The notes under the pieces: model-generated
What the model was told of the DNA's origin: nothing
Seen by the model: the letters and a program-made list of their open reading frames with translations, nothing else
Databases searched by the model: none
Assembly (NCBI RefSeq): GCF_006440675.2
Contig: NZ_CP083951.1
Span: 1,631,001-1,695,000, forward strand
DNA length: 64,000 nucleotides
Source of the DNA: Mesorhizobium sp. B2-8-5
GTDB lineage: Bacteria > Pseudomonadota > Alphaproteobacteria > Rhizobiales > Rhizobiaceae
Direction of reading: 5' to 3'
Part shown: positions 1,641 to 15,764 of the stretch, in pieces
How positions within the stretch are numbered: position 1 is the first letter of the stretch
How the letters are laid out: each line of letters begins with the position of its first letter
Program-made: the position numbers and the translations under genes

Positions 1641-2512
1641 ACCCCGTTAGATCTGGCGGTTGCCAGGGCGACGCCGAGCGTGGCGATCGCCATGCCGGCG
1701 ATCTGCAGCAGGTTGAGCCGCTCGTTGAAAAGCACCCAGGCGATGACCGCGGTTACGGCCGGCACGAGGTAGAACAGCGAGGCGACCTTCGACATCTCGC
1801 CGTCCCTGATCATCACCATCAACAGGAATATGGCGCCGACCGACAGCACCAGGACCAGCCAAGCCATGGCGAAGATCAGCTCGCCATTGACGGTGACGGC
1901 GCGGGTCTCGAAAGCGAGCGAGCCCAGGATCATCACCGCGGAGCCGCCGACATACTGCCACATCGTCGCCGACACCAGATCGCCGCCGGAGGCATAGCGC
2001 TTCTGCCAGATGGTGCCGGCGCTCATGCCGAGCACGGAGACAAGCGAAGCCGTCAGCGTCGCCGGCGTGACGCCGCCGCCCAGTGCGCCGAGCTTCGGCC
2101 AGAGCACGATGACGACGCCAAGCAGCCCGACCGCAAGGCCGGCCCAATGGCGCGGCAGGATCGCCTCGCCGAGGAATTTGCCGGCAAGCACCGCCGTGAT
2201 CAGCGGCTGCAGGCCGACGATCAGCGCCGATAGACCCGCCGGCATGCCCCTGTGGATCGCCCAGAAGACGGCACCGAGATAGACGCCATGCATGAGGACG
2301 CCGGCCACCGTTGCGTGCAGCGCCTCTTCGCGCGTCGCCTTGCGCGAGCCGAGCAGCACGGTCAGCCCCGCAAACAGGATCGCCGCTATCACGAAGCGGA
2401 TGGCAAGGAAGGTAAAGGGTTCCGCCCAGGGCATGGCATAGCGCGCGCCGATGAAGCCGGTCGCCCACAGAACGACGAAGGAGGCGGGGATGAACCGCTT
2501 GATGCTCTGCAT
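1610..2512 (-). CDS. EamA/DMT family transporter
   Basis: A 300-residue protein with about ten hydrophobic helices in two repeats of five, the layout of the EamA (DUF6, drug/metabolite transporter) family. It begins FIPASFVVLWATGFIGARYA, as RhaT/YdcZ-like permeases do, and the second half has YLVPAVTAVIAWVLFNERL, a hallmark of the repeated EamA domain. It is probably an inner-membrane exporter of a small metabolite; the substrate cannot be told. The gene converges on the BrkB-like gene and overlaps its end by 31 bp. No regulator is adjacent. Confidence 0.88.
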   Translation of the reverse strand: MQSIKRFIPASFVVLWATGFIGARYAMPWAEPFTFLAIRFVIAAILFAGLTVLLGSRKATREEALHATVAGVLMHGVYLGAVFWAIHRGMPAGLSALIVGLQPLITAVLAGKFLGEAILPRHWAGLAVGLLGVVIVLWPKLGALGGGVTPATLTASLVSVLGMSAGTIWQKRYASGGDLVSATMWQYVGGSAVMILGSLAFETRAVTVNGELIFAMAWLVLVLSVGAIFLLMVMIRDGEMSKVASLFYLVPAVTAVIAWVLFNERLNLLQIAGMAIATLGVALATARSNGVQPTRARASR

Positions 2513-2665
2513 GGGGGAGGCTGCCAGGATGAACGGTTGATGACGGCAATTGCTCTAAAGCCGTTCAATCCCGCAAGCAAAACGAAACGGTTGATCCATA
2601 AGCTAAGTCGAATTCAACAAACCGTGCCAAGAGGGGCATGGCGCGTGGTCGCGCCATGGTGAGGC

Positions 2666-2953
2666 ATGTTTTTGCATCTCGACACGACCTGGCTTCTGTT
2701 CGCCTTCGCGATCATCGCCGGCTTCGGCTTCTTCTTCGGCACGGCGCTCGACGCGATCATGAAGGAGAGCGGTTTCGGCCCGACCGGCAATACGCTGCTG
2801 TTCATCTTCGGCTTTTTCGTCGCGGTGGCGGTCGCCAACAAGCATGGCATCAGCCTGAGCGATCTCAAGCTGGCGGTTGCCTGCGGGCTGGGCGGCGCCT
2901 TTGTCTTCATCAGCGTGCTGGCGCTGATCAAGGCTGGGATGGCCCGACTTTAA
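2666..2953 (+). CDS. Small three-helix membrane protein, unknown function
   Basis: A 95-residue protein with three hydrophobic stretches (about residues 8-28, 43-60 and 68-90) joined by short polar loops (KESGFGPTGNT, NKHGISLSDLK). I do not recognise a named family. Its hydrophobicity pattern and the alphaproteobacterial codon use argue that it is real. The stop overlaps the 3' end of the convergent gluQ gene by 4 bp. It has no clear operon partner: a 150-bp gap separates it from the divergent EamA gene. Confidence 0.6.
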   Translation: MFLHLDTTWLLFAFAIIAGFGFFFGTALDAIMKESGFGPTGNTLLFIFGFFVAVAVANKHGISLSDLKLAVACGLGGAFVFISVLALIKAGMARL

Positions 2954-3822
2954 TCAAGTCCGATAAGACGCCTGACGTCCCGTACCGGCACGCCCGCGTC
3001 TCGGAGCGCGGCAAGACCTGTGTCCTTGAAGCTCTTGGACAGTTTCCGGCCATCCGTGCCAAGGATCACGCGGTGGTGGAAATAGCGTGGCTGAGGCAGG
3101 TCGAGCAGTTCTTGCAGCAGGCGCTGCACCCCGGTCGCCGAATAAAGGTCCTGGCCGCGCACGACATGGCTGACATCCTGCAGCGCGTCGTCGACGACGA
3201 CGGCGAGATGGTAGCTGGTCGGGATGTCGCGGCGGGCGACGATGACGTCGCCCCAATCCTGTGGTCGTGCTGCGACGGTTCGTGTCGCCGACATCGTCTC
3301 ATCGATGAACTCCGCCCATGACAGGCCGGCCGCGAAGCGCGCCATCGCCGCTTCGACGTCGAGCCGCCAGGCAAAAGGCATGTTCTCGGCAATCCGCCGC
3401 TTGCGCTCCCTGGCGGGCAAGGCCTTGTCGAGCGGCGGGTAGAGCGGCACGCCGTCGGGATCGCGCGGCCAGTCGCGGCCGCCGGTCTCGGCGATGAAGG
3501 CGCGGATCTCGCCGCGGCTCATGAAAGCGGGATAGACGAGTTCCTCGGCGATCAGCCGGTCGAGCACCGCCCGGTATTCGGCGAAATGCTCGGACTGGCG
3601 GCGCACCGGCCGCTCCCAGTTCAATCCCAGCCATTCGAGGTCGCGGAAAATGCCGGCCTCGAATTGCGGCGTGCAGCGGGCGACGTCGATATCCTCGATG
3701 CGCAGCAGCAGGCGTCCGCCCGCTTGCGCCGCCATCCGCTGGTTGAGCAGAGCCGAGTAGGCGTGGCCGAGATGCAGTTCGCCATTGGGGCTCGGCGCGA
3801 AGCGGAATGTCAGGAGCGTCAT
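2950..3822 (-). CDS. gluQ: Glutamyl-Q tRNA(Asp) synthetase
   Basis: A 290-residue protein that looks like a glutamyl-tRNA synthetase catalytic core without the anticodon-binding domain. It has the class I HIGH signature as HLGH (residues 17-20), the FAPSPNG lead-in, and the KLSKS motif near residues 260-264, followed only by a short tail. Full GluRS is about 470 residues, so this length and layout identify the GluQ-RS (YadB) paralogue, which attaches glutamate to queuosine at position 34 of tRNA(Asp). It is divergent from the AlkA-like gene; the convergent neighbour overlaps its stop by 4 bp. Confidence 0.93.
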   Translation of the reverse strand: MTLLTFRFAPSPNGELHLGHAYSALLNQRMAAQAGGRLLLRIEDIDVARCTPQFEAGIFRDLEWLGLNWERPVRRQSEHFAEYRAVLDRLIAEELVYPAFMSRGEIRAFIAETGGRDWPRDPDGVPLYPPLDKALPARERKRRIAENMPFAWRLDVEAAMARFAAGLSWAEFIDETMSATRTVAARPQDWGDVIVARRDIPTSYHLAVVVDDALQDVSHVVRGQDLYSATGVQRLLQELLDLPQPRYFHHRVILGTDGRKLSKSFKDTGLAALRDAGVPVRDVRRLIGLD

Positions 3823-3913
3823 CTTTCAGGCGGCATTCGGGTTGAAAGGCGCGTTTGCCAATTGGTATTTAGCCCTCCATTGCCACTTCGCGGGCGCCCT
3901 GGGAACCAGCAAC

Positions 3914-4573
3914 GTGCAACGCATCGCCTCGCTCGACGACATTGCGGCAGGGCTCGACGCGCTCTGCCGGATCGATCCGCGGCTGGAGACCATACGCGGC
4001 AAAGCGGGCGAAGTGCCGCTTCGGCTGTCGGAGCCAGGGTTCAGGAGCCTCGCTTCCATTATCGTTTCACAGCAAGTTTCCCGCGCGAGCGCCGACGCCA
4101 TCTTCGGGCGGCTGGTGAAATTGGTCGATCCGCTGACGCCGCAGGGGATCCTTGCCGCCGGTGAAGGGATTTTTCGCGAGGCCGGGCTGTCGCGGCCGAA
4201 GCAGCGCGGGCTGCTCGCCGTCGCGCAAGCCGTGGCCGGCGGGCTCGATCTCGATCACCTGTGCACGCTGGACGCCGGCGAGGCGATCGCGGCTATGACG
4301 GCCGTGCCCGGCATCGGCCCATGGACGGCCGAATGCTACCTGCTGTTTGCCGCCGGCCATCCCGACGTGTTCCCCGCGCGCGACGTCGCTTTGCAGACGG
4401 CGGTTGGCCATGCGCTCGGCATCGACCCGCGTCCGCCGGAGAAAATGCTTATCCGGCTGGCCGAATCATGGAGCCCGTGGCGGGGTGTCGCGTCGCGGCT
4501 TTTTTGGGCTTATTACCGGGAATTGAAGGGCAGGGATGCGGCGCCGCCTGTCGAAATGGCCAAAAAAGCATGA
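3914..4573 (+). CDS. DNA-3-methyladenine glycosylase (AlkA/HhH-GPD type)
   Basis: About 219 residues with the HhH-GPD base-excision fold: the helix-hairpin-helix VPGIGPWTAECYLL near residues 131-144 and the catalytic aspartate in PARDVALQ (about D157). VSQQVSRASADAIFGRL is the conserved helix of AlkA-type enzymes. It removes alkylated purines such as 3-methyladenine from DNA. The frame is open back to 3785, but that part overlaps gluQ and lacks similarity, so I prefer the GTG at 3914. There is no Ada-like regulator nearby. Confidence 0.87.
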   Translation: MQRIASLDDIAAGLDALCRIDPRLETIRGKAGEVPLRLSEPGFRSLASIIVSQQVSRASADAIFGRLVKLVDPLTPQGILAAGEGIFREAGLSRPKQRGLLAVAQAVAGGLDLDHLCTLDAGEAIAAMTAVPGIGPWTAECYLLFAAGHPDVFPARDVALQTAVGHALGIDPRPPEKMLIRLAESWSPWRGVASRLFWAYYRELKGRDAAPPVEMAKKA

Positions 4574-4684
4574 AAATCATGCGTTTTTGGCGGCTTCGGC
4601 GAGAGACAATCCGCTTCACATCCCTGTCATGTCGGGCTTACAGTATCCGCGCCGTTCGGTTCTAGAAGCAAGGAGGCGAAGGAC

Positions 4685-5242
4685 GTGACGGTTGCCGTAT
4701 CTCCGGATGGGCTTCCCGCGCTGGTGCTGAATGCGGACTACCGTCCGCTCAGCTATTACCCCCTGTCGCTCTGGTCGTGGCAGGACGCCATCAAGGCCGT
4801 CTTCCTCGACCGGGTCAACATCGTCGCCGAATACGAGCACGCCGTCTCCTCGCCGACCTTCTCGATGAAGCTGCCGAGCGTGGTGAGCCTGAAAGCCTAT
4901 GTGAAGCCGTCGCGGCATCCGGCCTTCACCCGCTTCAACGTCTTCCTGCGCGACCGCTTCCAGTGCCAATATTGCGGCACGCCGGAGGATTTGACGTTCG
5001 ACCATGTCATCCCGCGCCATCGCGGCGGGGCGACGACCTGGGAGAATGTCGTCGCCGCCTGCTCGCCTTGCAATCTTCGCAAAGGCGGCATGATGCCGGC
5101 CCAGGCCAAGATGTGGCCGCTGCAAAAACCCTATCAGCCGACGGTACACGACCTGCACAACAACGGCCGCCTGTTCCCGCCCAACCATCTGCATGAAAGC
5201 TGGATGGATTATCTCTACTGGGATGTCGAACTCGAACCTTAG
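4685..5242 (+). CDS. HNH endonuclease family protein
   Basis: A 185-residue protein with a zinc-ribbon-like HNH core: CQYCG near residue 98, the metal-binding FDHVIPRHRGG, then ENVVAACSPCN. The N-terminal LVLNADYRPL and the C-terminal HESWMDYLYWD belong to the widely conserved alphaproteobacterial HNH protein found as a chromosomal single gene, not in a restriction system. It is probably a DNA nuclease or nicking enzyme of housekeeping type. The start has a GGAGGCGAAGG ribosome-binding stretch 4-14 nt upstream. No methylase is adjacent. Confidence 0.85.
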   Translation: MTVAVSPDGLPALVLNADYRPLSYYPLSLWSWQDAIKAVFLDRVNIVAEYEHAVSSPTFSMKLPSVVSLKAYVKPSRHPAFTRFNVFLRDRFQCQYCGTPEDLTFDHVIPRHRGGATTWENVVAACSPCNLRKGGMMPAQAKMWPLQKPYQPTVHDLHNNGRLFPPNHLHESWMDYLYWDVELEP

Positions 5243-5398
5243 AGTTCGGCAGAAATCCGCGAGCCCGGCCGTCTGCCGCAGCTTTCTGCGCTTCCGGTGC
5301 TCACGTACCTGACAGACCGTGATTATCAGACACACCCTGATATCGGACCAACTCGGTCATCCCTACTTGTCAATGGCTTCGCGTTTAAGGACGGGCTT

Positions 5399-5557
5399 CC
5401 CCCACTCCGTCGCTGCTTCGCAGCGCCACCTCTCCCCCCTCCGGAGGGAGAGGAAGGGAGCCTGCTTGAAGGAGCGCTGGCTACTAGGCTCGCGCCGTTC
5501 CTCTACCCCGTCGATCGGGGGAGAGGTGGCTCGGCGAAGCCGAGACGGAGTGGGGGG
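5399..5557. repeat. 159-bp rhizobial-type inverted repeat in a gene-free gap
   Basis: The 408-bp gap 5243-5650 holds one clear structure. The left arm (5399-5440; CCCACTCCGTCGC then CCACCTCTCCCCC) is mirrored by the right arm (5516-5557; GGGGGAGAGGTGGC then GACGGAGTGGGG). Inner hairpins (GCTGCTTCGCAGC, CTCGGCGAAGCCGAG) lie within the arms. Such large palindromic units are typical of dispersed intergenic repeats in Mesorhizobium and relatives. It sits between two convergent genes and would form a long hairpin in either transcript. I see no gene in the rest of the gap. Confidence 0.8.
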
Positions 5558-5650
5558 TCGACCTGGCTCGGACGTCGAAAGCCGCGCCATTCGACTCAGC
5601 CTGCCGAATTTTTGCTCGAACCCTGCGCCGCTGAATCCAATCAATCTCGC

Positions 5651-6169
5651 TCAATCCCGCGCGAGCGCGCTGCGGAAGGCGACGGCGGCGAGGATGAGGC
5701 TGGCGATGGCGTTCCAGCCGGCGAGCGACAGGCCGAGGATGCGCAGCGCCGCCTTGTCGCAGGAGGGCGGCACGAACTTGTCGAGCGCGTCGAGCACGCC
5801 CTTGCCGCCAGTGTCGACCGGGCCGGCGCCGGCGGTGCAGTCGGCCGGACCTTGCCACCAGGCCCATTCGACGCCCGAATGGTAGACGCCGAGATAAAGG
5901 CCGTAGAGCATCAAAAGGCCGCCGATCGCCAGCAGGCCGCGCGTCACCCAGGCCGGCGCGCGCAGCATCGAGGCGATCACCGCCAGCACCATCAGCGGCA
6001 CGCCGATATAGTAGGGGGTGCGCTGCTCGAGGCAGAGGTGGCAGGGGATGTAGCCGCCGATATATTGAAAGGCCAGCGCCGAGCCGACGGTCGCCGCCAT
6101 GGCGACGGCAAGAAAGAGCGCCGCGCGCGTGCGCTGGCGTCCAGTGTCGGCAATCATGGTCGCTGTCAT
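5651..6169 (-). CDS. dsbB: Disulfide bond formation protein B
   Basis: A 172-residue protein with four predicted membrane helices and both DsbB cysteine pairs: CHLC at residues 43-46 in the first periplasmic loop, and C111 with C137 (PADC and PPSCDK) in the second. It passes electrons from DsbA-type oxidases to the quinone pool. LGLSLAGWNAIASL at the C-terminus is typical of alphaproteobacterial DsbB. It follows the yqaA-like gene on the same strand with a 24-bp gap, so the two are probably one transcript. Confidence 0.92.
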   Translation of the reverse strand: MTATMIADTGRQRTRAALFLAVAMAATVGSALAFQYIGGYIPCHLCLEQRTPYYIGVPLMVLAVIASMLRAPAWVTRGLLAIGGLLMLYGLYLGVYHSGVEWAWWQGPADCTAGAGPVDTGGKGVLDALDKFVPPSCDKAALRILGLSLAGWNAIASLILAAVAFRSALARD

Positions 6170-6193
6170 CGATGGAAATCCGTTGTTGCGTCG

Positions 6194-6781
6194 CTATCCG
6201 TGGGCGTATCTGACGAGGATATAGAGCAAAATCAGGGCAGCGGCGCCGGCGCCGACAATCAATCCCAAACGCTTTTCGATGAACTCCCTGATCTCTTCGC
6301 CATAGCGGCGCAGCAGCCAGGCGAGCAGCAGGAAACGGGCGCCCCGCGCCACGATCGCCGAGACGATGAAGACCAAAAGATTGACGTGAAGCGCCCCGGC
6401 CAGAATGGTGACCACCTTGATCGGCGGCAGGTGCGCGGCGCCGGATGTGACGAGCAGCACCAGCATCAGCCCGGCGCCGGACGACTGCCATTTCTCGAAC
6501 GTGGATAGGCCGCCGAAATGCTCCAGGATCGGGCGTGCTATCGTGTCGTAGGCATAGTAGCCGATCAGCCAGCCGGCTATGCCGCCCAGCACGGACGCAA
6601 CAGTAGCCGTCAACGCGTAGCGATAGGCGCGTTTGGGCGCCGCCAACGCCATGGGCAGGAACAGCACGTCGGCCGGTATGAAGAACACGGAGCTTTCGAC
6701 GAAGGCGATGAAGGCCAGCCACCATTCGGCGGATTTGCGCGCCGCCAGCGACAGGGTCCAGTCGTAAAGTCCGCGAAGCAT
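6194..6781 (-). CDS. YqaA/DedA-like membrane protein
   Basis: About 195 residues with a SNARE-associated/DedA-type core: FFIPADVLFLPMALAAP near the N-terminus, GGIAGWLIGYYAYD in the middle and a C-terminal amphipathic tail. YqaA proteins are short relatives of DedA lipid-scrambling proteins of the inner membrane. The frame extends to 6844, but the ATG at 6781 has an AGGAGA ribosome-binding site 5 nt upstream, which fixes the start. It lies just upstream of dsbB, in the order often seen in rhizobia. Confidence 0.87.
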   Translation of the reverse strand: MLRGLYDWTLSLAARKSAEWWLAFIAFVESSVFFIPADVLFLPMALAAPKRAYRYALTATVASVLGGIAGWLIGYYAYDTIARPILEHFGGLSTFEKWQSSGAGLMLVLLVTSGAAHLPPIKVVTILAGALHVNLLVFIVSAIVARGARFLLLAWLLRRYGEEIREFIEKRLGLIVGAGAAALILLYILVRYAHG

Positions 6782-7053
6782 CGGCTCTCCTGATTTGGTT
6801 CCGAACGGCGGAGTGGTTTTCGGGCACCGGCATGCACGAAACAAGGACCCAAAGCGCCGCAGCCGGCGTTTCCAGCCAGACGCGATAAGTTTCGTTTCTC
6901 TAGAAAGATTTTACGCGCCGCACAATGGCGGCGCCCTTACGGAACCGTAAGGCGAGGTCCGGGCGCGGCTACCACTGGTAAATCGGCAACAGGCCAGTTG
7001 ACGAAAGCCCGTCCAACCGTATAGTCCGCGCCCATCCAGGCCGTCCGGTCTGA

Positions 7054-7138
7054 GCCCCTATGGCGGAATTGGTAGACGCGCTCGACTCAAAATCGAGTTC
7101 CGCAAGGAGTGCTGGTTCGATCCCGGCTAGGGGCACCA
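7054..7138 (+). tRNA. tRNA-Leu (anticodon CAA)
   Basis: An 85-nt cloverleaf. The acceptor stem GCCCCTA pairs with TAGGGGC and is followed by A-CCA, which is encoded. The D-arm contains GGTAGAC. The anticodon stem-loop is CTCGA-CTCAAAA-TCGAG, giving anticodon CAA for UUG codons. A long variable region (TTCCGCAAGGAGT) and the T-arm GCTGG-TTCGATC-CCGGC complete it. The long variable arm fits class II tRNA-Leu. It lies 90 bp before the left boundary repeat of the ars islet. Confidence 0.97.
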
Positions 7139-7187
7139 TCCTTCGCTCTGCGAGCTTCGGGTGGCAGGCCATCCTTCGCTCTGCGAG
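7136..7187 (+). repeat. 19-bp direct repeat immediately after tRNA-Leu
   Basis: CCATCCTTCGCTCTGCGAG occurs at 7136-7154, where it includes the tRNA CCA end, and again at 7169-7187, 33 bp later; a partial third copy (CTATCCTTCTCC) starts at 7196. The repeats lie between the tRNA and the ars islet. They might be remnants of repeated insertion at the tRNA end, but no integrase or distant copy of the tRNA 3' end is present in the window. Confidence 0.6.
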
Positions 7188-7230
7188 TTGGCAGGCTATC
7201 CTTCTCCAATCTTTCGGGTTTTGACGACTG

Positions 7231-7329
7231 GCGCAGGCCGACGACGGCCAGCCTGCGCCGTCTTATGCGATCAGAGCGAGTGCTTGTAGCCGATCGCGAT
7301 GTTGAGCTTGTCGCCGGCGAGATCGTCGT
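7231..7329. repeat. Left direct repeat bordering the ars islet
   Basis: This consists of a 29-bp hairpin-forming segment at 7231-7259 (starting GCGCAGGCCGACGACG, ending GCCTGCGCC), identical to 12148-12176, followed after 7 bp by the 63-bp perfect repeat 7267-7329, identical to 12239-12301. Recombination between the 63-bp copies would release 4,972 bp containing all six ars-related genes. In the right copy the two segments are separated by a 62-bp mobile-repeat sequence that is missing here. Confidence 0.92.
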
Positions 7330-7393
7330 TCGCGTCGGCGTCCTTGACGATGCCGGTGTCGTGCCAAGTGTAGCCGAGAGCAACCCTGGAGTG
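7267..7393 (-). pseudogene. Deleted fragment of the outer-membrane protein gene at 12243-12923
   Basis: Positions 7267-7329 are identical over 63 bp to 12239-12301, which is the 3' end of the intact gene including its stop codon. Positions 7330-7393 then match an internal part of the same gene (about 12524-12588) with a few mismatches and a 1-bp deletion. About 222 bp between the two parts are missing, and everything 5' of them is absent. It is therefore a broken, internally deleted remnant in the same orientation as the intact gene. Together with the hairpin at 7231-7259 it forms the left border of the ars islet. Confidence 0.9.
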
Positions 7394-7411
7394 ACAGCCG
7401 GTCGCTATGCA

Positions 7412-8611
7412 TTACTGCATCTGAACCTGCAGTGTTCGACGACGGAAGATCAGCCAGCCCAAGCTGCAGGCGAGCCCGACGTTCAGCAACGCCAAAGCGG
7501 CGAGAGCTGCAAGGGTGCCACGAGGGCCGGCTTGCTCCAACAACAACGCTCCCACGGACGGCGCTGCTGCCTGAGCGATCAAGCTGGGCATAGCGAGACG
7601 CCCCATGAGCCTCGCATATCCCGCAGGGCCAAACAGAGCCAGCGGCAGCGTGCCCCGCGCTATCGTTTCGAGGCCGATACCAGCCCCGTAGAAGGCAAGC
7701 GCCACAGCCACAACCGGAACCCCGACCCAGAGCGCACCAATGCCGATGGCGACGAATGTCACGGACGCGAACTTGGTCCAGATGGGATGATGGTAGCGGG
7801 CGATGAACATCTCGACAGCACGCGCCGACACTTGAGCGGGGCCGACGAGTGCCCCGAGCCCAACGGCGGCGGCGAGCGCCATGCCGCCAGCCTGCAAGAT
7901 GGTGAGCAGATGAACTGACACTGTCGACGAAATGGCCGCCGCCAACGTCAGCGTGGCAGCCAGGAGAACCATGATCGGAACCGAGGTCGCCGCAGAAGGG
8001 ACCGCAGCCTGTGTCTTTCCAGGCCGGTCCGGGACGCTCGGCGGAGGCACCCCACGCGGCAGCATTGCGAGATAGAGGGGGAGGGCGAACAACAACTGTA
8101 CCGCGGCATAGACGAGGCAGGTGCCGCGCCAACCCGTCTCGCCAATCAGGAAGGCCGAGATCGGCCAACAGATGGTGCTGGCGAACCCGCCGAACAACGA
8201 GAGGGTTGTGATAGCGGAGCGCGCGCCGTGCCCATAGAGCCGACCGAGGGTGCCGAAGGCGGCGTCGTACAAGCCTGCACCCATGCCAAGTCCCACAACG
8301 ACCCATGCCGCGATGTAGGCGACGAGGTTTGGGGCGGCCGCAAGCCCGATCTGGCCGACGCCGATCGAGCACGCGCTGAACGCAAGCACGTTTCGGCCGC
8401 CGTGCCGTTCAATGGATGAGCCGACATGAGGCGAGATCAAGCCGGCGACGAGCAAGCCGAGCGACAATCCGCCAACGACCCAAGTCAGCGGCCAGCCAGT
8501 GTCGGCGGCTACCTTCGGTGCGATGACCGCCGGCAAGTAGTAGGTGGACCCCCAAGCCATGATCTGGGTCAGTCCAAGGACGGTTATGATCGTTCGCCGA
8601 CTGCGCTCCAT
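7412..8611 (-). CDS. MFS transporter in the ars islet, possible arsenical exporter
   Basis: A 399-residue protein with about twelve hydrophobic helices, the major facilitator layout. It begins with TIITVLGLTQIMAWGSTYYL and has WVVVGLGMGAGLYDAAFGTL in the middle. It is the last gene of a leftward cluster after the Cys-tailed flavoprotein (15-bp gap), so it is very likely co-transcribed. MFS exporters of arsenite or organoarsenicals (ArsK, ArsJ or ArsP-like roles) are known from such clusters. Since no ArsB or Acr3 pump is present here, this is the best candidate efflux step. ArsJ is unlikely because its GAPDH partner is missing. The substrate is inferred from context only. Confidence 0.82.
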   Translation of the reverse strand: MERSRRTIITVLGLTQIMAWGSTYYLPAVIAPKVAADTGWPLTWVVGGLSLGLLVAGLISPHVGSSIERHGGRNVLAFSACSIGVGQIGLAAAPNLVAYIAAWVVVGLGMGAGLYDAAFGTLGRLYGHGARSAITTLSLFGGFASTICWPISAFLIGETGWRGTCLVYAAVQLLFALPLYLAMLPRGVPPPSVPDRPGKTQAAVPSAATSVPIMVLLAATLTLAAAISSTVSVHLLTILQAGGMALAAAVGLGALVGPAQVSARAVEMFIARYHHPIWTKFASVTFVAIGIGALWVGVPVVAVALAFYGAGIGLETIARGTLPLALFGPAGYARLMGRLAMPSLIAQAAAPSVGALLLEQAGPRGTLAALAALALLNVGLACSLGWLIFRRRTLQVQMQ

Positions 8612-8626
8612 CGCGGTTTGTTTCGT

Positions 8627-10021
8627 TCAAGCCGCTGCGTTGCAACCGCAGCCGCTCTTGCCAGCGGCTTTCGCTTCAGCGTCGGCGACACAACAGGCGT
8701 CAGCCTCGGAAGGAGCTGGGCCACCACAACACCCGCCACCCGTCGCGCGTATGGTTGAGGGAGGGACCGTGCAGACGCCTGTTTCGGGTAGCACCAGTTG
8801 CACGGCATCCGCAGCCGCCATCTCGCCAGCGAGGGCTGCCGCGACCGACCGTACCTGTTCATACCCGGTCAGCAGCAAGAAGGTCGGAGCGCGGCCGTAG
8901 CTCTTGACGCCGACAGTGTAGAAGTCCGGCTCGGGATGACTCAGTTCGCGATGGCCGTGCGGGGGAACGTCGCCGCAGGAGTGCTCGTTGGGGTCGATCA
9001 GAGGCCCCAGCGCCTTGACGCTCTCAAGCCACGGGTCAAGGTCCAGCCTAAGTTCGCGCGTGAGCGAGAGATCGGGCCGCTGGCCGGTCGCGGCGATGAT
9101 ACGGTCAACAGGCCCCAGCACTTGTAAGCCGTCCCGCGTTTGACCTTCAACGGTCAGGCGGCCATTTGAGCCGCGGATGGCCAGCGTTGCGAAGCCGGTG
9201 ACCATCGTTGTGCCGCCACTTTCCACCAGCTCGCGAGCATCGGCACCCAGCTCGCCACGAGCGGGAAGTTGGTCGGCGTCTCCACCACCGTAGATGCGAA
9301 CAAGATCGGTACTGCGTGTCACCCAGAGAGAAGCGGTGCCCGGCTCGTCAGCAGCCAGTCTATCGAGTTCCAGCAGAGCGTTGGCGGCCGAAAGGCCGGA
9401 GCCAGCAACCAGCGTCGTGCGACCGGCATAGAGGTTGCGGTCGCGGCCGAGAATGTCGGGGATGCCGTAAGCGATCTTGTCAGCGAACTCCGCTTCACCC
9501 TCCGCCGTGATACCACCGCCCCCAAGTGGGTTTGGCGTCTGCCATGTCCCGGACGCATCAACGACGGCGCGCGCGCGGTCGCTCCTGATCCCGTCGGCGG
9601 TCTTCACGACCAACATGAAGGGCCTTGCCTGTCGATCCTTGCTCAATACCTTGTCCGCACCCCAGCGGGAGATGCCGATCACGTTGGCGTTGGTCTCGAT
9701 AGACGTTGAGAGTTCAGGCAGCCTTGCGAGCGGTTCAAGGTAGTGCGCAATCAGCTCGTCAGCGGTTGGGAACGCCTCAGGATCGGGCATCGTCCAGCCA
9801 TTGCGCTCAAGAAACCTTACCGCCGTCCGATCCACACAGTAGCGCCAAGGCGTGAACACCCGAACATGACCCCAGTCGCGGAGATTGGTGGCGACTTCCG
9901 CGCCGGCCTCGTAGACCTTCACGGGGAGCCCACGCTGAACGAGCTGAACTGCAGCCGCCAAGCCGACCGGGCCGGCTCCGATGACGGCAACAGGGAGATC
10001 GTCATGGTCATTCATCGGCAT
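8627..10021 (-). CDS. Flavin-dependent monooxygenase-like protein with Cys-rich tail, ars-linked
   Basis: About 464 residues. VAVIGAGPVGLAAAVQLVQR at the N-terminus is a FAD-binding GxGxxG fold, and LVAGSGLSAANALLELDRL near the middle is a second, NAD(P)H-type nucleotide site, with IIAATGQRPD later. This is the flavin-containing monooxygenase/oxidoreductase architecture. The last 35 residues are unusual: GGGCCGG, then ACC and SGCGC, seven cysteines in all, suggesting thiol binding of arsenite or another metalloid. Related flavoproteins (sometimes called ArsO) occur in ars operons, but their reaction is not settled. Three nearby ATGs (10030, 10021, 10015) could start it; AGGATGG lies 5 nt before 10021. 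Confidence 0.8.
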   Translation of the reverse strand: MPMNDHDDLPVAVIGAGPVGLAAAVQLVQRGLPVKVYEAGAEVATNLRDWGHVRVFTPWRYCVDRTAVRFLERNGWTMPDPEAFPTADELIAHYLEPLARLPELSTSIETNANVIGISRWGADKVLSKDRQARPFMLVVKTADGIRSDRARAVVDASGTWQTPNPLGGGGITAEGEAEFADKIAYGIPDILGRDRNLYAGRTTLVAGSGLSAANALLELDRLAADEPGTASLWVTRSTDLVRIYGGGDADQLPARGELGADARELVESGGTTMVTGFATLAIRGSNGRLTVEGQTRDGLQVLGPVDRIIAATGQRPDLSLTRELRLDLDPWLESVKALGPLIDPNEHSCGDVPPHGHRELSHPEPDFYTVGVKSYGRAPTFLLLTGYEQVRSVAAALAGEMAAADAVQLVLPETGVCTVPPSTIRATGGGCCGGPAPSEADACCVADAEAKAAGKSGCGCNAAA

Positions 10022-10070
10022 TGTTTCCATCCTTCCGGGATCATCGAAATACGAAACAAAAAAATATGCG

Positions 10071-10391
10071 CTATGCCGCTGCTTCGCCATCGACGGCACC
10101 GCAAGCGGCGTCAGCGCAGCACTCGTCAGCCAAGAAGCCGATCAGCTCCCTCATGATAGGGTAGTTGGCCCGACAGATCAGGGTCGTTGCCTGCCGCTCC
10201 TGCGTCACGAGGCCGGTCAGAATGAGGCGATGCAGATGGTGGGACAGCGTCGAGGCCGCGATGCCAAGGCTGTCCTGCAAGTACCCCACGGGCCGGCCTG
10301 CTTCGCCGGCTCTGACCAGTGTGCGATAGAGCTTGAGCCGTGTCGGGTTGCCGATGGCTTCGAGCTGTTTTGCTGCTTGTTCGAGTTTCAT
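10071..10391 (-). CDS. arsR: ArsR family transcriptional repressor (second copy)
   Basis: About 106 residues with a winged helix: NPTRLKLYRTLV is followed by the recognition helix SLGIAASTLSHHLHRL and a wing around QERQATTLICRA. Cysteines sit after the wing (C73) and in a C-terminal ECCADAAC cluster (C91, C92, C97), which may bind As(III). The start is taken as the ATG before KLEQAAKQLEAIG. The longer frame from 10427 begins in promoter-like DNA. A palindrome just upstream (10432-10453) is a good operator candidate, suggesting that this gene, the flavoprotein and the MFS gene form their own transcription unit. Confidence 0.9.
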   Translation of the reverse strand: MKLEQAAKQLEAIGNPTRLKLYRTLVRAGEAGRPVGYLQDSLGIAASTLSHHLHRLILTGLVTQERQATTLICRANYPIMRELIGFLADECCADAACGAVDGEAAA

Positions 10392-10431
10392 GGAAATAAC
10401 ACTACACCCGCCGCCGGCACAGGTCAATACC

Positions 10432-10453
10432 TATTTCGACAAAGATCGAAATA
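10432..10453. promoter_or_regulatory. Candidate ArsR operator
   Basis: TATTTCGA-caaaga-TCGAAATA is a perfect 8-bp inverted repeat with a 6-bp spacer in the short gap between arsC (ends 10457) and the second arsR (starts 10391). AT-rich inverted repeats of this size upstream of arsR are typical ArsR operators. A partial half-site (TCGAAATACGA) lies at 10046-10056, before the flavoprotein gene. Confidence 0.7.
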
Positions 10454-10456
10454 TGA

Positions 10457-10879
10457 TCAAACGACCCGTTTACCGGTCGCGTCGATAACGACCTCGCCGT
10501 CTTCCTTGGTGAAGGGGCCGATGTCGGGATTGGGCAAAATCGAGAGGACCGCCTCAGAAGGTCGCGCAAGGACCGCGCCCAGCGGGGTCACCACGATTGG
10601 GCGGTTGATCAGGATCGGATGGTTGAGCATGGCGTCGATCAGATCGTCGTCTGACCACTTCGGGTCCGCGAGCCCAAGCTCCTCATAGGGCGTTCCCTTC
10701 TCCCGAAGCAGCGCACGGGTAGTGATCCCCATGGCTGCGATCAGCTCAACCAGCTTTGCACGTGAGGGAGGCGTCTTGAGGTATTCGATGATCTCGGGCT
10801 CTTCGCCGCTCTGCCTGATCATGGCCAGCGTGTTTCGCGAGGTGCCGCACTGGGGGTTGTGATAGATCGTGATGGTCAT
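10457..10879 (-). CDS. arsC: Arsenate reductase, glutaredoxin-dependent
   Basis: A 140-residue protein of the E. coli plasmid ArsC family. The catalytic cysteine is C11 in NPQCGTSR, and the arginine-containing NRPIVVTPLGAVLARPSEAV in the second half supplies the substrate-binding arginines. It reduces arsenate to arsenite in the cytosol using glutaredoxin and glutathione. Its start overlaps the aqpS stop by 4 bp (ATGA), so the two are translationally coupled. Full family length and all key residues are present. Confidence 0.96.
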   Translation of the reverse strand: MTITIYHNPQCGTSRNTLAMIRQSGEEPEIIEYLKTPPSRAKLVELIAAMGITTRALLREKGTPYEELGLADPKWSDDDLIDAMLNHPILINRPIVVTPLGAVLARPSEAVLSILPNPDIGPFTKEDGEVVIDATGKRVV

Positions 10880-11565
10880 TCGGCGGGTTCCTCATTGGTG
10901 ATGGCTTGGGGTTCCGCAAGCAGCCAGCCGGCAAGCGCCATTGCCACCAGAGCCCCGGCAAGCTGGGCGGCGATGAAGGCCGGGACATCGAGCGGCCGGA
11001 TGCCCGCGAAGGTATTGGAGAGGGCGCGGGCCACGGCCACGGCCGGGTTTGCGAACGATGTCGAGGCAGTGAACCAGTAGGCGGCCACGATGTAGAGGCC
11101 AACCAGCCACGGGATGGCATCAGAGCGAAAGCGGAGACCGGCAAGGATGGTGAAGACGAGGCCGAAGGTCGCAACCGCCTCAGCGATCCACAGACCAGAC
11201 CCCGAGCGCACCGTGGTCGAGAGACTGAAGAGCGGCATATCAAACATGGCATGAGCCGTCAGTGTGCCGAGTATGCCTCCCGCGAGCTGGGCTGCCACGT
11301 AGGTCAGGGCCACATCGCGGGCCATTTGATGCCTCAGGCTGAACACGAGCGTGACCGCTGGGTTGAAATGCGCACCGGAAATCGGACCGAGGATGGTGAT
11401 CAAAACGATCAGTATCGCGCCGGTCGGCAAGGTGTTGCAGAGCAAGGCGAGCGCCACATCATGGGTCAGCCGGTCGGCCATGATCCCGGAACCGACCACG
11501 GTGGCGACCAGCATCGCAGTTCCAAGTCCTTCGGCAGCTAGCCGTCGCGGCAGGTCAGCTGACAC
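10876..11565 (-). CDS. aqpS: Aquaglyceroporin of the ars operon
   Basis: A 229-residue membrane channel of the MIP/aquaporin family with six helices and two NPA half-helices: HFNPAVT (N68) and FANPAVAVAR (N173). In Sinorhizobium meliloti an aquaporin, AqpS, replaces the usual pump in the arsR-aqpS-arsC operon and lets arsenite made by ArsC flow out of the cell down its gradient. Gene order and coupling here match that arrangement, so the symbol is given by analogy. It lies 24 bp after arsR. Confidence 0.93.
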   Translation of the reverse strand: MSADLPRRLAAEGLGTAMLVATVVGSGIMADRLTHDVALALLCNTLPTGAILIVLITILGPISGAHFNPAVTLVFSLRHQMARDVALTYVAAQLAGGILGTLTAHAMFDMPLFSLSTTVRSGSGLWIAEAVATFGLVFTILAGLRFRSDAIPWLVGLYIVAAYWFTASTSFANPAVAVARALSNTFAGIRPLDVPAFIAAQLAGALVAMALAGWLLAEPQAITNEEPAE

Positions 11566-11589
11566 GGTGCCGAGCCTCCATTGAGATCG

Positions 11590-11922
11590 TTAGCACTTAC
11601 AGGTCACCGCCTGGATGACCGGCCGGCAAAGCTCCGGGGCGCCCCTGCAGCAGTCTTCCATCAGGTAGGCCAGCAGATCGCGAAAGGCGTTCATGTCGAC
11701 GACATACCGGATGATCCGCCCCTCCCGTTCGGCGCGAACAAGCCCGGCGCGGTCGAGGACCTTCAGATGCGCAGACATGGTGTTCTGCACCGTTCCCAGT
11801 TGCGATGCGATCTCGCCGGCTGGAACGCCTTCGGCACCCGCTTGCACGAGCAGCCGGAACGTCTCTAACCTTGTGTCCTGACCAAGCGCGGCCAGCGCCA
11901 GCAGAGCAGTAGTCTTGTCCAT
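11590..11922 (-). CDS. arsR: ArsR family transcriptional repressor (operon head)
   Basis: About 110 residues. A winged-helix core (ALGQDTRLETFRLLVQAG, then QLGTVQNTMSAHLKVL) is followed by five C-terminal cysteines (C91, C92, C99, C108, C110; EDCCRG and CKC), probably the arsenite sensor. It heads the leftward arsR-aqpS-arsC operon. The start is ambiguous because ATGs at 11922 and 11934 both lie in a four-unit ATCC repeat. The longer frame back to 12048 reads through the likely promoter. It should repress its own operon until arsenite binds. Confidence 0.9.
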   Translation of the reverse strand: MDKTTALLALAALGQDTRLETFRLLVQAGAEGVPAGEIASQLGTVQNTMSAHLKVLDRAGLVRAEREGRIIRYVVDMNAFRDLLAYLMEDCCRGAPELCRPVIQAVTCKC

Positions 11923-11936
11923 CCATCCATCCATCC
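11921..11936. repeat. Tetranucleotide repeat (ATCC)x4 over the arsR start
   Basis: Four perfect ATCC units on the plus strand cover both candidate start codons of arsR (in the coding sense ATGGATGGATGGATGG). A change of one unit would shift which ATG is in frame and alter spacing to the promoter. Just beyond it (11937-11958) GGATTTGTGGATGTGTAGATG loosely mirrors the repeat, so the region may also contain the operator. Confidence 0.6.
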
Positions 11937-12147
11937 GGATTTGTGGATGTGTAGATGGGCAGCATGACGGTTGGATGACAGGCTGATGGGGGTCGGAATT
12001 TTTTGGCCAAAGATTTGCGCGCCCAATCCGATTATCAGCACGCGCCACGTTCCCCTGCCGGGTCTCCGGCCTATTAGGAGCGCATCGCGGTCCTGAGACA
12101 TTCTGGAGGCGGCCTCAGAGCCGCAAGAGCTGCCTTGCGGGCGTGAG

Positions 12148-12176
12148 GCGCAGGCCGACGACGGCCAGCCTGCGCC
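12148..12176 (+). terminator. Hairpin with T-rich tail, possible terminator; right islet border
   Basis: GCGCAGGC and GCCTGCGC pair around a GC-rich loop, and TTTGTTGTTTT follows on the plus strand at 12177-12187. As a terminator it would act rightward, where no upstream rightward gene exists, so it may simply be part of the repeated border sequence. An identical hairpin lies at 7231-7259 without the T-rich tail. Confidence 0.45.
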
Positions 12177-12182
12177 TTTGTT

Positions 12183-12240
12183 GTTTTCACGCAATTCCGG
12201 ACGAAAAACCGCTACACACTTTTCCTGGAATTGCTCTAGC
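12183..12240. repeat. Short dispersed palindromic repeat (copy next to OMP gene)
   Basis: GCAATTCC (12191-12198) and GGAATTGC (12227-12234) form the arms around AAAAACC and ACACTTTTCC, ending CTCTAGC. A close relative lies at 48313-48365, and the same layout recurs at 40510-40563 and 30179-30238. The left islet border lacks this sequence between otherwise matching flanks, which shows it as an insertion relative to that copy. Confidence 0.8.
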
Positions 12241-12242
12241 GA

Positions 12243-12923
12243 TCAGAGCGAGTGCTTGTAGCCGATCGCGATGTTGAGCTTGTCGCCGGCGAGATCGTCG
12301 TAAGGTGCCGACGTCGTATCGGTCTTTTTCCACGAATAGCCGAGGCTGGCATAGACGGCATTGGTGGGATCGATGTTGTAGGTCACGCCTGTGGCCAGCT
12401 TCGGCGTTTCCCAGGTGGTGTTGAAGGCGTTGCGGTAGCGGAAGTTGAAGACATTCCACGTCCATTGCTTGGACAGTTTCCAATCTCCGGCGAGATACAA
12501 GGCGTAGTAGGGGATCTGCGCATTTGCGTCGGCGTCCTTGACGATGCCGGTGTCATGCCAAGTGTAGCCGAGGGCAACGCTGGGAGTGAAGGTGAAGGCG
12601 TCCGTCAGCTTGATCTTGTAGCCGAGACTCGCCTCGCCGTAATATTGTGTCTTTCCACCGGTCTTGAAGGTCGGCTGGATGAATATCCCGCCGACGAAAT
12701 TGTCGGCGAAATTGTGCGAGACGCTGAACTTGAAGTAGGTGTCGGCGAGCGATCGCGCTTTGTTGCTGCCATTGTCGATGGCGTAGAACTCGGGACTTCC
12801 CTCAATCCCCAGAGTCCAGGTCGGTGCTGCCGGCGGGGGTGCTTCGACAAGGTCGGCGGCGAAGCTGGATGATGCCATGGACAGTGAGATGCCCAGTGGC
12901 GCGATAATGGCACGAAAAAGCAT
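12243..12923 (-). CDS. Outer-membrane beta-barrel protein, unknown function
   Basis: A 226-residue protein with a signal peptide (cleavage expected after SSSFA, near residue 23) and alternating aromatic/polar strands such as WTWNVFNFRYRNAF and SLGYKIKLTDAFTFTPSVAL, ending LNIAIGYKHSL. This is the pattern of a small outer-membrane barrel of about 8-10 strands, typical of alphaproteobacteria. The ligand or role is unknown. Its 3' end is duplicated at 7267-7393 as a broken copy, so the ars islet lies exactly between two versions of this gene. It may have been the insertion or duplication site. Confidence 0.78.
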   Translation of the reverse strand: MLFRAIIAPLGISLSMASSSFAADLVEAPPPAAPTWTLGIEGSPEFYAIDNGSNKARSLADTYFKFSVSHNFADNFVGGIFIQPTFKTGGKTQYYGEASLGYKIKLTDAFTFTPSVALGYTWHDTGIVKDADANAQIPYYALYLAGDWKLSKQWTWNVFNFRYRNAFNTTWETPKLATGVTYNIDPTNAVYASLGYSWKKTDTTSAPYDDLAGDKLNIAIGYKHSL

Positions 12924-13254
12924 GGTCTTTCCTCGATGTAGGAAGTGGCGGGAGATGTGCCGGCGATGCGGCGAGGAACCCGCTAGGCGCGCCGGATTTC
13001 AGTTGTGTGACGATGTGCCATTTGTGCAGACACAAGGACATCACGAAGTTGGGATCGTCGGATTGCCCGCCTTGGTCAGCTCGATGGGCACCCTGATCGG
13101 TCGGACGAAACAGTCGCCATTTCGACGCCATGTCGGCGGCATTCCTGGCTGGGCATCCCGCAGGAGCTCGTCCGGCCCGGCGGGCTCACCAGCAATCTCA
13201 TGCCGATCGGGCATCGGCGCAGCCCGGCCTGAACTGCTGTGTTGGAGCCGGCTG
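12924..13254. other. Gene-free stretch between two leftward genes
   Basis: This 331-bp gap should hold the promoter of the outer-membrane protein gene at its left end (TTTCCTCGATGTAGG lies just before the start). Open frames crossing the rest have no recognisable family pattern, and I see no strong hairpin or repeat. Confidence 0.4.
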
Positions 13255-14415
13255 CTACCGCATATTCCCCGTGTGCCCCTGCGAGTAGCGCCCCGGCTGT
13301 GGCCACACCGTAAGCCCGTGCGGCTCGACGCCGACGCGGATCTTGGTCACGGCGCCGCACGTCGTGTCGATCATGTAGACGTCGCTGTCGAAGCGGCCGG
13401 ACAGCCATAATTGCCTGCCGTCGGCGCTGACATTGCGCATGTCGGGGCTGCCGCCGCCCGGGATCGGCCATTGCGCGACCACGGCGCGGGTGGCGAAGTC
13501 GATCACCGTCACGCTGCCCGGGCCGTTGGCCTTGCCCTGCTCCATCTTGTGCGAGCCGCGGTTCGAGACATAGAGCCGCTTGCCGTCGCGGCTGACGACG
13601 AAGCCGTGCGCGCCGATGCCGGTCGGGATGAAGCCGATTTCCCGAAAACTGTCGCCGTCGACCAGGAGCACGCCGTCATTCATCATGTCGGCGACGTAGA
13701 AGACCTTGCCGTCGGGCGACAGGCGGATGTCCTGCGGCATGCCCATCTTGGAGAGGTCGAGATGGCCGAGCAGCTTCTGGTTCTTCAAGTCGATCTTGGC
13801 CAGGCCGCCGTCGCCATATTCGCAGGTGAAGATCGCGTAGGAACCGTCGGCAGAGAAGTCGGCATGGTTGATGCCCGGGCAAGTCGGCGTCGGCAGGCTC
13901 GATTTCAACGTCATGGTGTGCGGTTCGCGGAAATCGAGCTGCTCCATCGCCTCGTCGACGACGATTGCCGCGCTGCCGTCCGGCATGAAGTAGAGATTAT
14001 AGGGGTCGTCGACCGGGATCTGCTGGCCGGGCCTGGCCGTCATCGGGTCGATCGGCGGCAAGCTGCCGTTCCTGCCGGTGCCGTTGTTGGCGACCCAAAG
14101 CGTCTTGAGGTCCCAGGACGGCACGACGTGCTGCGGCTTGCTGCCGACCTGGAACCGGCCGACCTCCTTCAAGGTGACGGTGTCGATCACCGAGACGCTG
14201 TTGGAGGAGCGGTTCGGCACATAGACGCGCGGCAGCGCGCCGGCGGTGGCGGGGCTCAGATGGCCGGCCGCGGTCTGGCTGTAGATGTTGACAGGCGCGG
14301 GTGGCGGATCGGAGCAATCCTCCGGACAGGTATCGGCCCAGGCCCGGGCAGGCATGAGCGCAATCAGCAGCACGGCCGCACGGAAACTGGTGTGACGCAA
14401 ACGACTTCTGATCAT
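13255..14415 (-). CDS. Secreted YVTN-type beta-propeller protein
   Basis: A 386-residue protein with an N-terminal signal peptide (hydrophobic AAVLLIALMPARAWA, about residues 13-27) and repeated propeller blades: RVYVPNRSSNSVSVIDT, KTLWVANNGTG, GKVFYVADMMNDGVLLVDG, KRLYVSNRGSHK and SPDMRNVSADGRQLWLSGR. These are YVTN/lactonase-like blades, expected in the periplasm. Several conserved cysteines in the N-terminal part (DTCPEDCSD) may form a disulfide. The substrate or partner is unknown; family members often serve in metal or redox contexts. No operon partner is close on the same strand. Confidence 0.83.
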   Translation of the reverse strand: MIRSRLRHTSFRAAVLLIALMPARAWADTCPEDCSDPPPAPVNIYSQTAAGHLSPATAGALPRVYVPNRSSNSVSVIDTVTLKEVGRFQVGSKPQHVVPSWDLKTLWVANNGTGRNGSLPPIDPMTARPGQQIPVDDPYNLYFMPDGSAAIVVDEAMEQLDFREPHTMTLKSSLPTPTCPGINHADFSADGSYAIFTCEYGDGGLAKIDLKNQKLLGHLDLSKMGMPQDIRLSPDGKVFYVADMMNDGVLLVDGDSFREIGFIPTGIGAHGFVVSRDGKRLYVSNRGSHKMEQGKANGPGSVTVIDFATRAVVAQWPIPGGGSPDMRNVSADGRQLWLSGRFDSDVYMIDTTCGAVTKIRVGVEPHGLTVWPQPGRYSQGHTGNMR

Positions 14416-14483
14416 CTGGATGGTTTCGTGTAGGCCGGCCCGAGTTCGCCGCGCGGACCCATAGCTTGTGTCCCGCCGTTGAT

Positions 14484-15764
14484 CTAGCGCCTTTTCAAAA
14501 GACTCCGCATGCGGTTGCGCAGGATGCGCGCCATGTTGCGGGTCTCACGGTAGAGATGCAGTTGCGAGGCCGCCTGACGGGCCAGCCGGTCGGCATCCGG
14601 CGTCAGCCCGACCACCAGCGTGCCCATCGGCTTGCGCTCGCTCCACAGCCGGCTCATCACCGGATGGTCCGGAACCGCGCAGGAATCGGTCATGACGATG
14701 TTGGGATCGTCGAGATGCTGCTTGGTCACCTCGATCATCAGCAGCGTGCCCGGCGAATAGGCGGAAAGCGCCTCGTCATAGGCCGTCTTCCAGGTGTAAG
14801 CGACGCCGGCCTCGACGAAGACGACCAGGCAGGCGACGGTGCGGCCGTCGAGCGTCAGCAGATGGATACGGCACATGTCCTGCTCGGCCAGCCTATGCAC
14901 GGCTTCGCGGGCGAAGGCGGCGCGGTAACGGTCGATCGCCATCGCGGTGCGCTCGCGGCCTTTCCAGCCGGCCGCTTCAAGCGTCAGGAAGCTTTCGATG
15001 GCGTGGCGTATCTCGTCCTGCCCGCGTGCCACGATGTGCTCGAGCTTGCCTTGATCGGCGAGGCGCCGCTTCAGCCGGCGGAATTCGCGATAGTGATGCG
15101 CGCGCAGCGAGGCCTTGAGGTAGTCCTCGCCGTCGGCATCGCTTTCAAGCACCGGGCGCTCGACCTTGCCGGTGGTCACCATGGTCAGGCCGCGGCTGTC
15201 GGCAAACGAGGTCATGAGGCTCGCCACCGGACCGTCGAGCTTGATGTCGGGCAGCACGAAGACCTTGGGCAGCTTGAGATGCGGCCGCGACAGCATCGAG
15301 AAGAAATCCTCGATGACGCCGACCGGATCGTCGCGATCGACCAGCGGCGTTCCGAGCGGGCCGAACGGGCTCGACCATGTGCGCATCACCGGGACGCCGA
15401 GCGGGATCGCCGGCCGCTCGACCGAGAACGGCACCAGAAGCCGCAGCCGGTTGCGGTATTCGTCGCCGTCGCGGATGACGGCAAGCCGCACCTCGCGGTC
15501 TTCCAGCCGGGGCATCGCCGGCGCCAGGAAGCGCGGGTTGAAGAAGACGTTCGGCTCGATCGTGCGGGCGCTGAGATAGTCGAGTTCCTCGACAAGTTCG
15601 AAGCCCGCCGAGGCTGGGTAGATGGCGAGCTTGCGCTCCGGCCGGTTGCTGGCGAAGAGCTCGATATGGGCGGGGTCGACCTCGCGCGCCAGGCCGGCAA
15701 GGTTGGAGACCATGGCGCCGGCGGTGCCGCCGCTGGTCTCTTCGAGCAACGGGACGGCGGCCAT
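14484..15764 (-). CDS. GNAT-fold acyltransferase (BioF2/CelD-like), paired with flippase
   Basis: About 426 residues. The C-terminal half has the GNAT fold seen in CelD/FemAB-like proteins: LKASLRAHHYREFRRLKRRL, RIHLLTLDGRTVACLVVFVE, AYSPGTLLMIEVTKQHL and a final arginine-rich tail. Relatives act in polysaccharide or lipid modification. The start codon overlaps the flippase stop as TGATG, so the pair is translationally coupled. An open frame continues upstream through the flippase gene in another frame, but its composition is that of a shadow. The acceptor is unknown. Confidence 0.8.
   Translation of the reverse strand: MAAVPLLEETSGGTAGAMVSNLAGLAREVDPAHIELFASNRPERKLAIYPASAGFELVEELDYLSARTIEPNVFFNPRFLAPAMPRLEDREVRLAVIRDGDEYRNRLRLLVPFSVERPAIPLGVPVMRTWSSPFGPLGTPLVDRDDPVGVIEDFFSMLSRPHLKLPKVFVLPDIKLDGPVASLMTSFADSRGLTMVTTGKVERPVLESDADGEDYLKASLRAHHYREFRRLKRRLADQGKLEHIVARGQDEIRHAIESFLTLEAAGWKGRERTAMAIDRYRAAFAREAVHRLAEQDMCRIHLLTLDGRTVACLVVFVEAGVAYTWKTAYDEALSAYSPGTLLMIEVTKQHLDDPNIVMTDSCAVPDHPVMSRLWSERKPMGTLVVGLTPDADRLARQAASQLHLYRETRNMARILRNRMRSLLKRR

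Follow-up and report, generated by a model that had tools for sequence, protein, structure and literature searches.

In Mesorhizobium, 79 tRNA-associated ICEs/IMEs have been described at 16 sites in 41 genomes, beside tRNA-Phe, -Ser, -Met, -Arg and other tRNA genes (PMC8627217). An element that has kept attL and attR and has lost its integrase and transfer genes is called a cis-mobilizable element, or CIME (PMC5704250). Small cargo islands of varying content, some of them integrase-less, are found at the ssrA gene of Dehalococcoides, where they are flanked by a repeat of the RNA-gene end (PMC3146451). With regard to cargo, Sinorhizobium meliloti has an ars operon that includes a MIP channel, AqpS (PMC4435449, citing Yang 2005).

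The locus described here lies in a 64,000-nt stretch (the window) of the chromosome of Mesorhizobium sp. B2-8-5; this genome is denoted G000, and the other G numbers refer to the Mesorhizobium genomes compared. It holds an arsenic islet which is probably a decayed tRNA-site islet with a recombination scar, a kind that is already known; no islet of this sort was named in the titles or abstract openings found in the literature. What it has in common with the Mesorhizobium ICEs/IMEs (PMC8627217) is insertion at the 3' end of a tRNA gene, the involvement of tyrosine recombinases and, in two islet relatives, tRNA-end repeats. However, the islet measures about 5 kb, transfer genes were not noticed in it, its window copy lacks an attachment repeat, and tRNA-Leu and tRNA-Ala are not among the tRNAs named in the part of that source drawn on here. 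In sequence, the relatives in G070 and G105 can be compared to CIMEs (PMC5704250), as attL/attR-like repeats surround the cargo and no integrase was seen; the window copy lacks the attR that a CIME retains. As in Dehalococcoides (PMC3146451), several small variable cargos, some without integrase, occur at one RNA gene, but the host, the cargo and the RNA gene are different and a second tRNA site is involved. The operon shares with that of S. meliloti (PMC4435449) the combination of a MIP channel and ArsC; beyond these it has another ArsR, an FAD oxidoreductase bearing a Cys-rich tail and an ArsK-like MFS transporter.

Genes of the arsenic islet

The islet occupies 7397..12090 on the minus strand, with limits set by homology to G127 (L102:4258-8946, 90.0% nucleotide identity). 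A preliminary description of this DNA had placed six ars-type genes between a broken fragment of an outer-membrane gene and the intact gene, and six ars-type ORFs were indeed found between the repeats, all on the minus strand and in the order arsR-MIP channel-arsC-arsR-oxidoreductase-ArsK-like MFS. The two ArsR-family regulators (11590..11940 and 10071..10427; NF033788, 60.6 and 59.8 bits, cut-off 55) and ArsC, an arsenate reductase of the glutaredoxin type (10457..10879; TIGR00014, 149 bits, cut-off 106), exceed the curated cut-offs, which identifies the cluster as an ars operon. The MIP channel (10876..11565; PF00230, 86.5 bits, cut-off 25) is AqpS-like by neighbourhood. The MFS transporter (7412..8611) is ArsK-like but falls short of the ArsK equivalog cut-off (NF033733, 211.8 of 400 bits), and the FAD-dependent oxidoreductase (8627..10099) is distantly ArsO-like, far below the ArsO cut-off (NF040505, 31.9 of 425 bits). 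The coordinates of the latter are those of its longest ORF; the start codon is uncertain, and an ATG at 10013-10015 is possible. Its Cys-rich tail (CCG..CC..CGC) was present in all 19 homologues with a readable tail among the 30 looked at.

By family alone, the predicted function of the operon is arsenate reduction with arsenite export: ArsC would reduce arsenate, the MIP channel and the MFS transporter would release arsenite, and ArsR would de-repress the genes. The oxidoreductase, which scores so far under the ArsO cut-off, may perhaps belong to an unnamed metalloid-linked family.

Outer-membrane gene and border repeats

To the right of the islet lies an intact gene for a predicted outer-membrane beta-barrel of 226 residues (12243..12923, minus strand). 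The protein has no Pfam or NCBIfam match over cut-off. Its structure model, of modest confidence (pLDDT 64, from an alignment of 15), consists of one N-terminal helix and ten strands, and the structural matches include porins at low TM-scores; the predicted ten-strand fold and the porin matches fit an outer-membrane barrel. Matches to the gene were found in 24 of 146 genomes, of which 21 are close (the window's own included) and three remote (34-36%), and the gene is therefore accessory. The genome, a single contig of 6.46 Mb, has one full-length copy and, to the left of the islet, a piece of another.

This left piece (7267..7389, minus strand) is a broken 3' fragment of the same gene, as had been proposed. 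The first of its two repeat blocks is the 63-bp direct repeat already reported (7267-7329 and 12239-12301, 63/63 identical, spacing 4972), and an exact 63-mer occurring twice within 9.5 kb is far above chance according to an arithmetic estimate. The second block (7329-7389 and 12523-12583) is identical in 57 of 61 positions (93%) with a spacing of 5194. The unequal spacing means that the left copy comes from the 3' end of the outer-membrane gene and, relative to the intact gene, has an in-frame internal deletion of 222 bp (74 codons). A hairpin is present on both sides in the same orientation (7230..7259 and 12147..12176, spacing 4917), although with a length of 30 bp, all identical, and not the 29 bp given before. 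In total, the left and right copies show no differences in 93 bp and four in 61 bp. An unrelated gene as a better match for the left fragment had been named as the outcome that would speak against its origin; among 19 outer-membrane genes compared, own gene included, the window's own gene aligns best (57/61), followed by that of G132 (53/61).

The two sides differ in the gap between hairpin and gene end, which is 7 bp on the left (7260-7266) and 62 bp on the right (12177..12238). A genome repeat search identified the right-hand 62 bp as an interspersed repeat element of this genome, with 40 places scored and listed of 186 candidates. The element is common to the right copy and G105, at the same spot, and is missing from the left copy and from G112. 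It follows that simple copying of the right gene does not account for the left piece.

The gene end was also sought at the tRNA site of other genomes, and only G118 gave a true match to the left fragment there: in that genome, too, the outer-membrane gene is represented by a broken 3' end, which has a hairpin (L243:2093-2122), lies beside tRNA-Leu and is followed by other DNA. Apparent matches in G067, G071, G091 and G111 were dropped as unrelated, being about 12 kb from the tRNA and of 28 bp at 89%.

The tRNA-Leu site

The preliminary description overlooked a tRNA-Leu(CAA) gene at 7054..7138 on the plus strand (ARAGORN; Rfam RF00005, 57.1 bits), besides which an Rfam search of 5000-15000 gave nothing. 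It lies 258 bp from the islet, which is thus adjacent to a tRNA gene in the way of genomic islands. The other marks of a tRNA island, a tRNA 3'-end repeat at the far border and an integrase of its own, are absent from the window: only the tRNA itself matches its tail (up to 3 mismatches), and neither a Pfam search of ten proteins nor comparison with the integrase of G105 revealed an integrase. Two copies of a 19-bp repeat (7136-7154 and 7169-7187) stand at and after the tRNA end. The first part of the sequence downstream of the tRNA (7139..7229) is like that of empty sites, for instance G117.

The gene left of the tRNA has a weak VTT-domain match (23.6 bits, cut-off 33.9) and is matched in 145 of 146 genus genomes. 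The contents of the site were surveyed in 144 of these 145, that is the window and 143 stretches, all scored by one script; G079 was excluded, as its contig ends at the site. The right flank is a YncE-like beta-propeller gene (13255..14415, minus strand), which is within the stretch in 58 of the 144 genomes. A site was called empty when less than 200 bp separate the tRNA from the YncE gene, and was placed in the integrase class when a match to the integrase of G105, which carries Pfam PF00589, lies no more than 300 bp after the tRNA. Empty sites numbered 27 (in G117 the two genes are 49 bp apart), and three sites had ars genes only (G127, G070 and G069), while ars genes and the outer-membrane gene together were seen in one of the 144, the window. 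Matches to the G105 integrase lay beside the tRNA in ten, many of them partial or broken; those in G045 and G137 are short or weak. In 17, cargo of another type was found and the YncE gene was inside the stretch; content was other or unknown in 65, and ten lacked a full tRNA in the stretch, including G017, in which the tRNA is split and the outer-membrane gene present. The tRNA-Leu site of G105 itself is interrupted by contig ends. The 14-bp tRNA tail recurs downstream in seven genomes (G037, G056, G070, G075, G107, G129 and G143). Between tRNA-Leu(CAA) and the YncE-like gene there is thus a hot spot of integration. Genomes with the outer-membrane gene and no ars genes, which the preliminary description had recommended looking for, amount to 11 of the 144 at this same tRNA site, and its expectation of gain and loss among strains is borne out in that both islet and outer-membrane gene vary between the genomes surveyed.

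Some further variation was observed at the site. In G017 (L115:7453-11474), tRNA-Leu is split by about 4 kb that contain a further tRNA-Leu(CAA) together with the gene of a single-subunit RNA polymerase of phage type (PF00940, 170 bits; PF14700, 77.8 bits), and this insert is probably a prophage remnant at the same tRNA-Leu. The tRNA is inverted relative to the left-hand gene in two of 134 stretches with a full tRNA (G112, L108:4481-4565; G129, L252:1842-1926), the copy in G129 being merely 87% alike. The VTT-like gene (6194-6790) falls into two allele classes, of 88-100% and 73-82% identity, while its DsbB neighbour is 91-97% identical across the 18 loci compared, a contrast that suggests allele exchange beside the tRNA.

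Related islets

In the 146 genomes, the oxidoreductase is matched most closely by those of G127 (94%), G070 (89%), and G105 and G069 (85% each). These four nearest ars islets are all at tRNA genes, three at the same tRNA-Leu and one at a tRNA-Ala. In G127, G070 and G069 the islet lies between this tRNA-Leu and the YncE gene, and the outer-membrane gene has no match in any of these three genomes. In G070, the far side of the islet bears 17 bp that repeat the tRNA end perfectly (spacing 5239). The islet of G105 lies at tRNA-Ala(GGC), flanked by 26-bp repeats that are likewise perfect (spacing 4917), in the orientation opposite to its tRNA. No tRNA-end repeat was found at the far side in G127 and G069, and tail repeats are seen in only two of the five related islets. 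Inspection of the islet ORFs of G070 and G105, as distinct from a profile search, brought no integrase to notice. The islet ends of G105 differ, homology to the window spanning 7416-11983 only, and these ends and the opposite orientation do not support a common attachment unit. The spacing of 4917 which the G105 repeats have in common with the window hairpins is taken to be a coincidence, because the ends are not homologous. The islet of G069 (L104:5942-9002) is without the first arsR, the channel and arsC and retains arsR2, the oxidoreductase and the MFS gene.

A trace of an integrase-bearing element may be present in G127. The 266 bp between its tRNA and MFS gene resemble the tRNA-proximal start of an island in G107 (tblastx E 5e-5), and also the island starts of G027 and G144 (E 0.001 and 0.002). 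The matches are short, and one aligned piece of the comparison with G107 crosses a stop codon, so that this piece lies upstream of the G107 integrase gene. The tRNA-proximal ORF of G107 is a phage integrase (PF00589, 29.5 bits, cut-off 27.1), and a second tRNA tail follows 13 kb further on. To a moderate degree, this supports arrival of the islet lineage at the tRNA-Leu site inside an integrase-bearing element. Since the window has neither integrase nor tRNA tail, we infer entry by an integrase from its relatives.

The tree built from 30 oxidoreductase proteins unites those of the five tRNA-sited islets in one group (100/99), with the pairs G000 and G127 (100/99) and G105 and G069 (100/97); the latter pairing nests the tRNA-Ala copy among the tRNA-Leu copies. 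Twenty further Mesorhizobium ars loci, with oxidoreductases at 77-81%, have a tRNA in the stretch in three cases and a tRNA-end repeat in none. Eleven of them have the six genes in the order of the window and a close MFS, and in the other nine the MFS match is merely 29-33%, three of these also being without a MIP match. Compared with G127, the islet is 90.0% identical and two flanking stretches 90.6% and 92.0%; islet and flanks have thus diverged alike and the islet is no fresh arrival relative to that split. Against G105 the islet is 86.1% identical, while the flanks left of the tRNA (853-6794) are at 92.7-95.1%. The gene trees fit both an old residence with losses and transfer within the genus, and cannot tell between them. 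A plasmid origin was considered and rejected, there being no megablast match among 72,556 plasmid records, and no donor outside the genus was found, the best oxidoreductase match after the own one being 71% in 247 family genomes, a few of them of the genus.

Origin of the layout

From what is observed, namely the anatomy of the window, the alternative contents of the site, the tRNA-end repeats of two relatives and the left/right difference in the 62-bp element, it is most likely that the islet lineage spread by tRNA-directed integration, and the tRNA-side end of the islet was probably replaced by exchange with an allele bearing the outer-membrane gene only. An element with a tyrosine recombinase would have integrated at the tRNA end and brought the compact ars islet into this lineage of sites, and would later have lost the integrase, leaving a CIME-like remnant; the outer-membrane gene would be a second, separate cargo of the same site. 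A later homologous exchange, with its anchor on the tRNA side and an illegitimate joint at the left end of the islet, would have swapped the tRNA-proximal end of the islet for tRNA-downstream DNA, the hairpin and a 3' gene piece. The direct repeats would be the scar of this event, and could let RecA remove the islet. The order of events, the donor allele and the RecA excision are what we infer, and we give the account as a whole a somewhat better than even chance.

The exchange step is suggested by the left border. The DNA next to the tRNA is like that of empty sites and is followed by hairpin and gene end, which is the layout of the outer-membrane-gene-only loci (7229-7329 aligns with G112 at 84%), and the islet's own tRNA-side end, seen in G127, is absent. 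Exchange with another allele would be the simplest reading of the left piece; gene conversion of the left copy, or loss of the 62-bp element, is possible. Against the account, the genomes compared yielded, outside the window, no allele whose gene end is near-identical and free of the element, and the 56 bp at 12091-12146 do not find an explanation in it. Joining the sequence in silico at the 63-bp repeat gives an outer-membrane gene that is intact and lies 132 bp from the tRNA, in agreement with the earlier proposal that recombination there would excise 4,972 bp and leave that gene whole. The joined sequence is collinear with all four loci to which it was compared (G112, with its tRNA inverted, G132, G135 and G020), and recombination between the 63-bp copies could therefore remove the islet and restore the layout of other species.

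The preliminary description had instead proposed that the islet entered at the outer-membrane gene by duplication or homologous recombination without a classical integrase, doubling the gene end. The identical 63-bp and 30-bp repeats in the same orientation around the islet, and the fact that the own gene is closest to the left fragment, would be expected from this, and it is correct that the window has neither integrase nor tRNA tail. Orthologous islets are, however, found at the same site without the outer-membrane gene (G127, G070, G069), tRNA-end repeats are present in G070 and G105, and the left copy differs from the right in the missing 62-bp element, the in-frame 222-bp deletion and four of 61 positions, so that entry at the gene appears quite improbable. 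If integration at the tRNA had instead placed the islet ahead of a resident outer-membrane gene, local duplication, deletion and conversion of the gene end could have produced the left piece with no foreign allele. The 93 bp identical between the copies would then be easily understood, and the decay of the same gene at this site in G118 is a parallel, but empty-site-like DNA lies beside the tRNA where the end of a tRNA-integrated islet is expected, and the 62-bp element is again missing from the left copy; we consider such a local origin unlikely. Successive integration of a unit with the outer-membrane gene and one with the ars genes, the left fragment being the remnant of the first gene unit, is suggested by the presence at the site of several cargos unrelated to one another and of tRNA tails, and by the extra DNA beside the outer-membrane gene in G024, G027, G025 and G007. 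Against accretion of this type, the window has no tRNA tail between units, and ten of the 11 outer-membrane-gene-only loci show just the tRNA's own tail, while the eleventh, G112 with its inverted tRNA, shows no tail on the strand searched, and we regard it as rather improbable.

Tyrosine-recombinase-mediated entry at the tRNA followed by allele exchange thus remains our preferred reading. If it is correct, a chromosomal hot spot swaps small adaptive cargos, a recombination scar can mask an earlier tRNA-directed integration, and an arsenic-resistance block may be lost again in a single recombination step. The 62-bp interspersed repeat could serve as a marker for dating alleles. The relatives at two tRNA genes, in which no integrase was seen, offer material on mobilisation in cis or in trans in a soil bacterium. 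It is tempting to regard the five related islets as copies of an integrase-less arsenic cassette of about 5 kb which moves, satellite-like, between tRNA-Leu-CAA and tRNA-Ala-GGC by means of resident integrases, but the differing ends and orientations in G105 and G070 argue against a single attachment unit for such a cassette, and the idea seems to us unlikely to hold. In G117 (C1:510830-535876) the tRNA-Ala and the flank that follows tRNA-Ala in G105 are about 24.5 kb apart, so that the tRNA-Ala may be a second hot spot.
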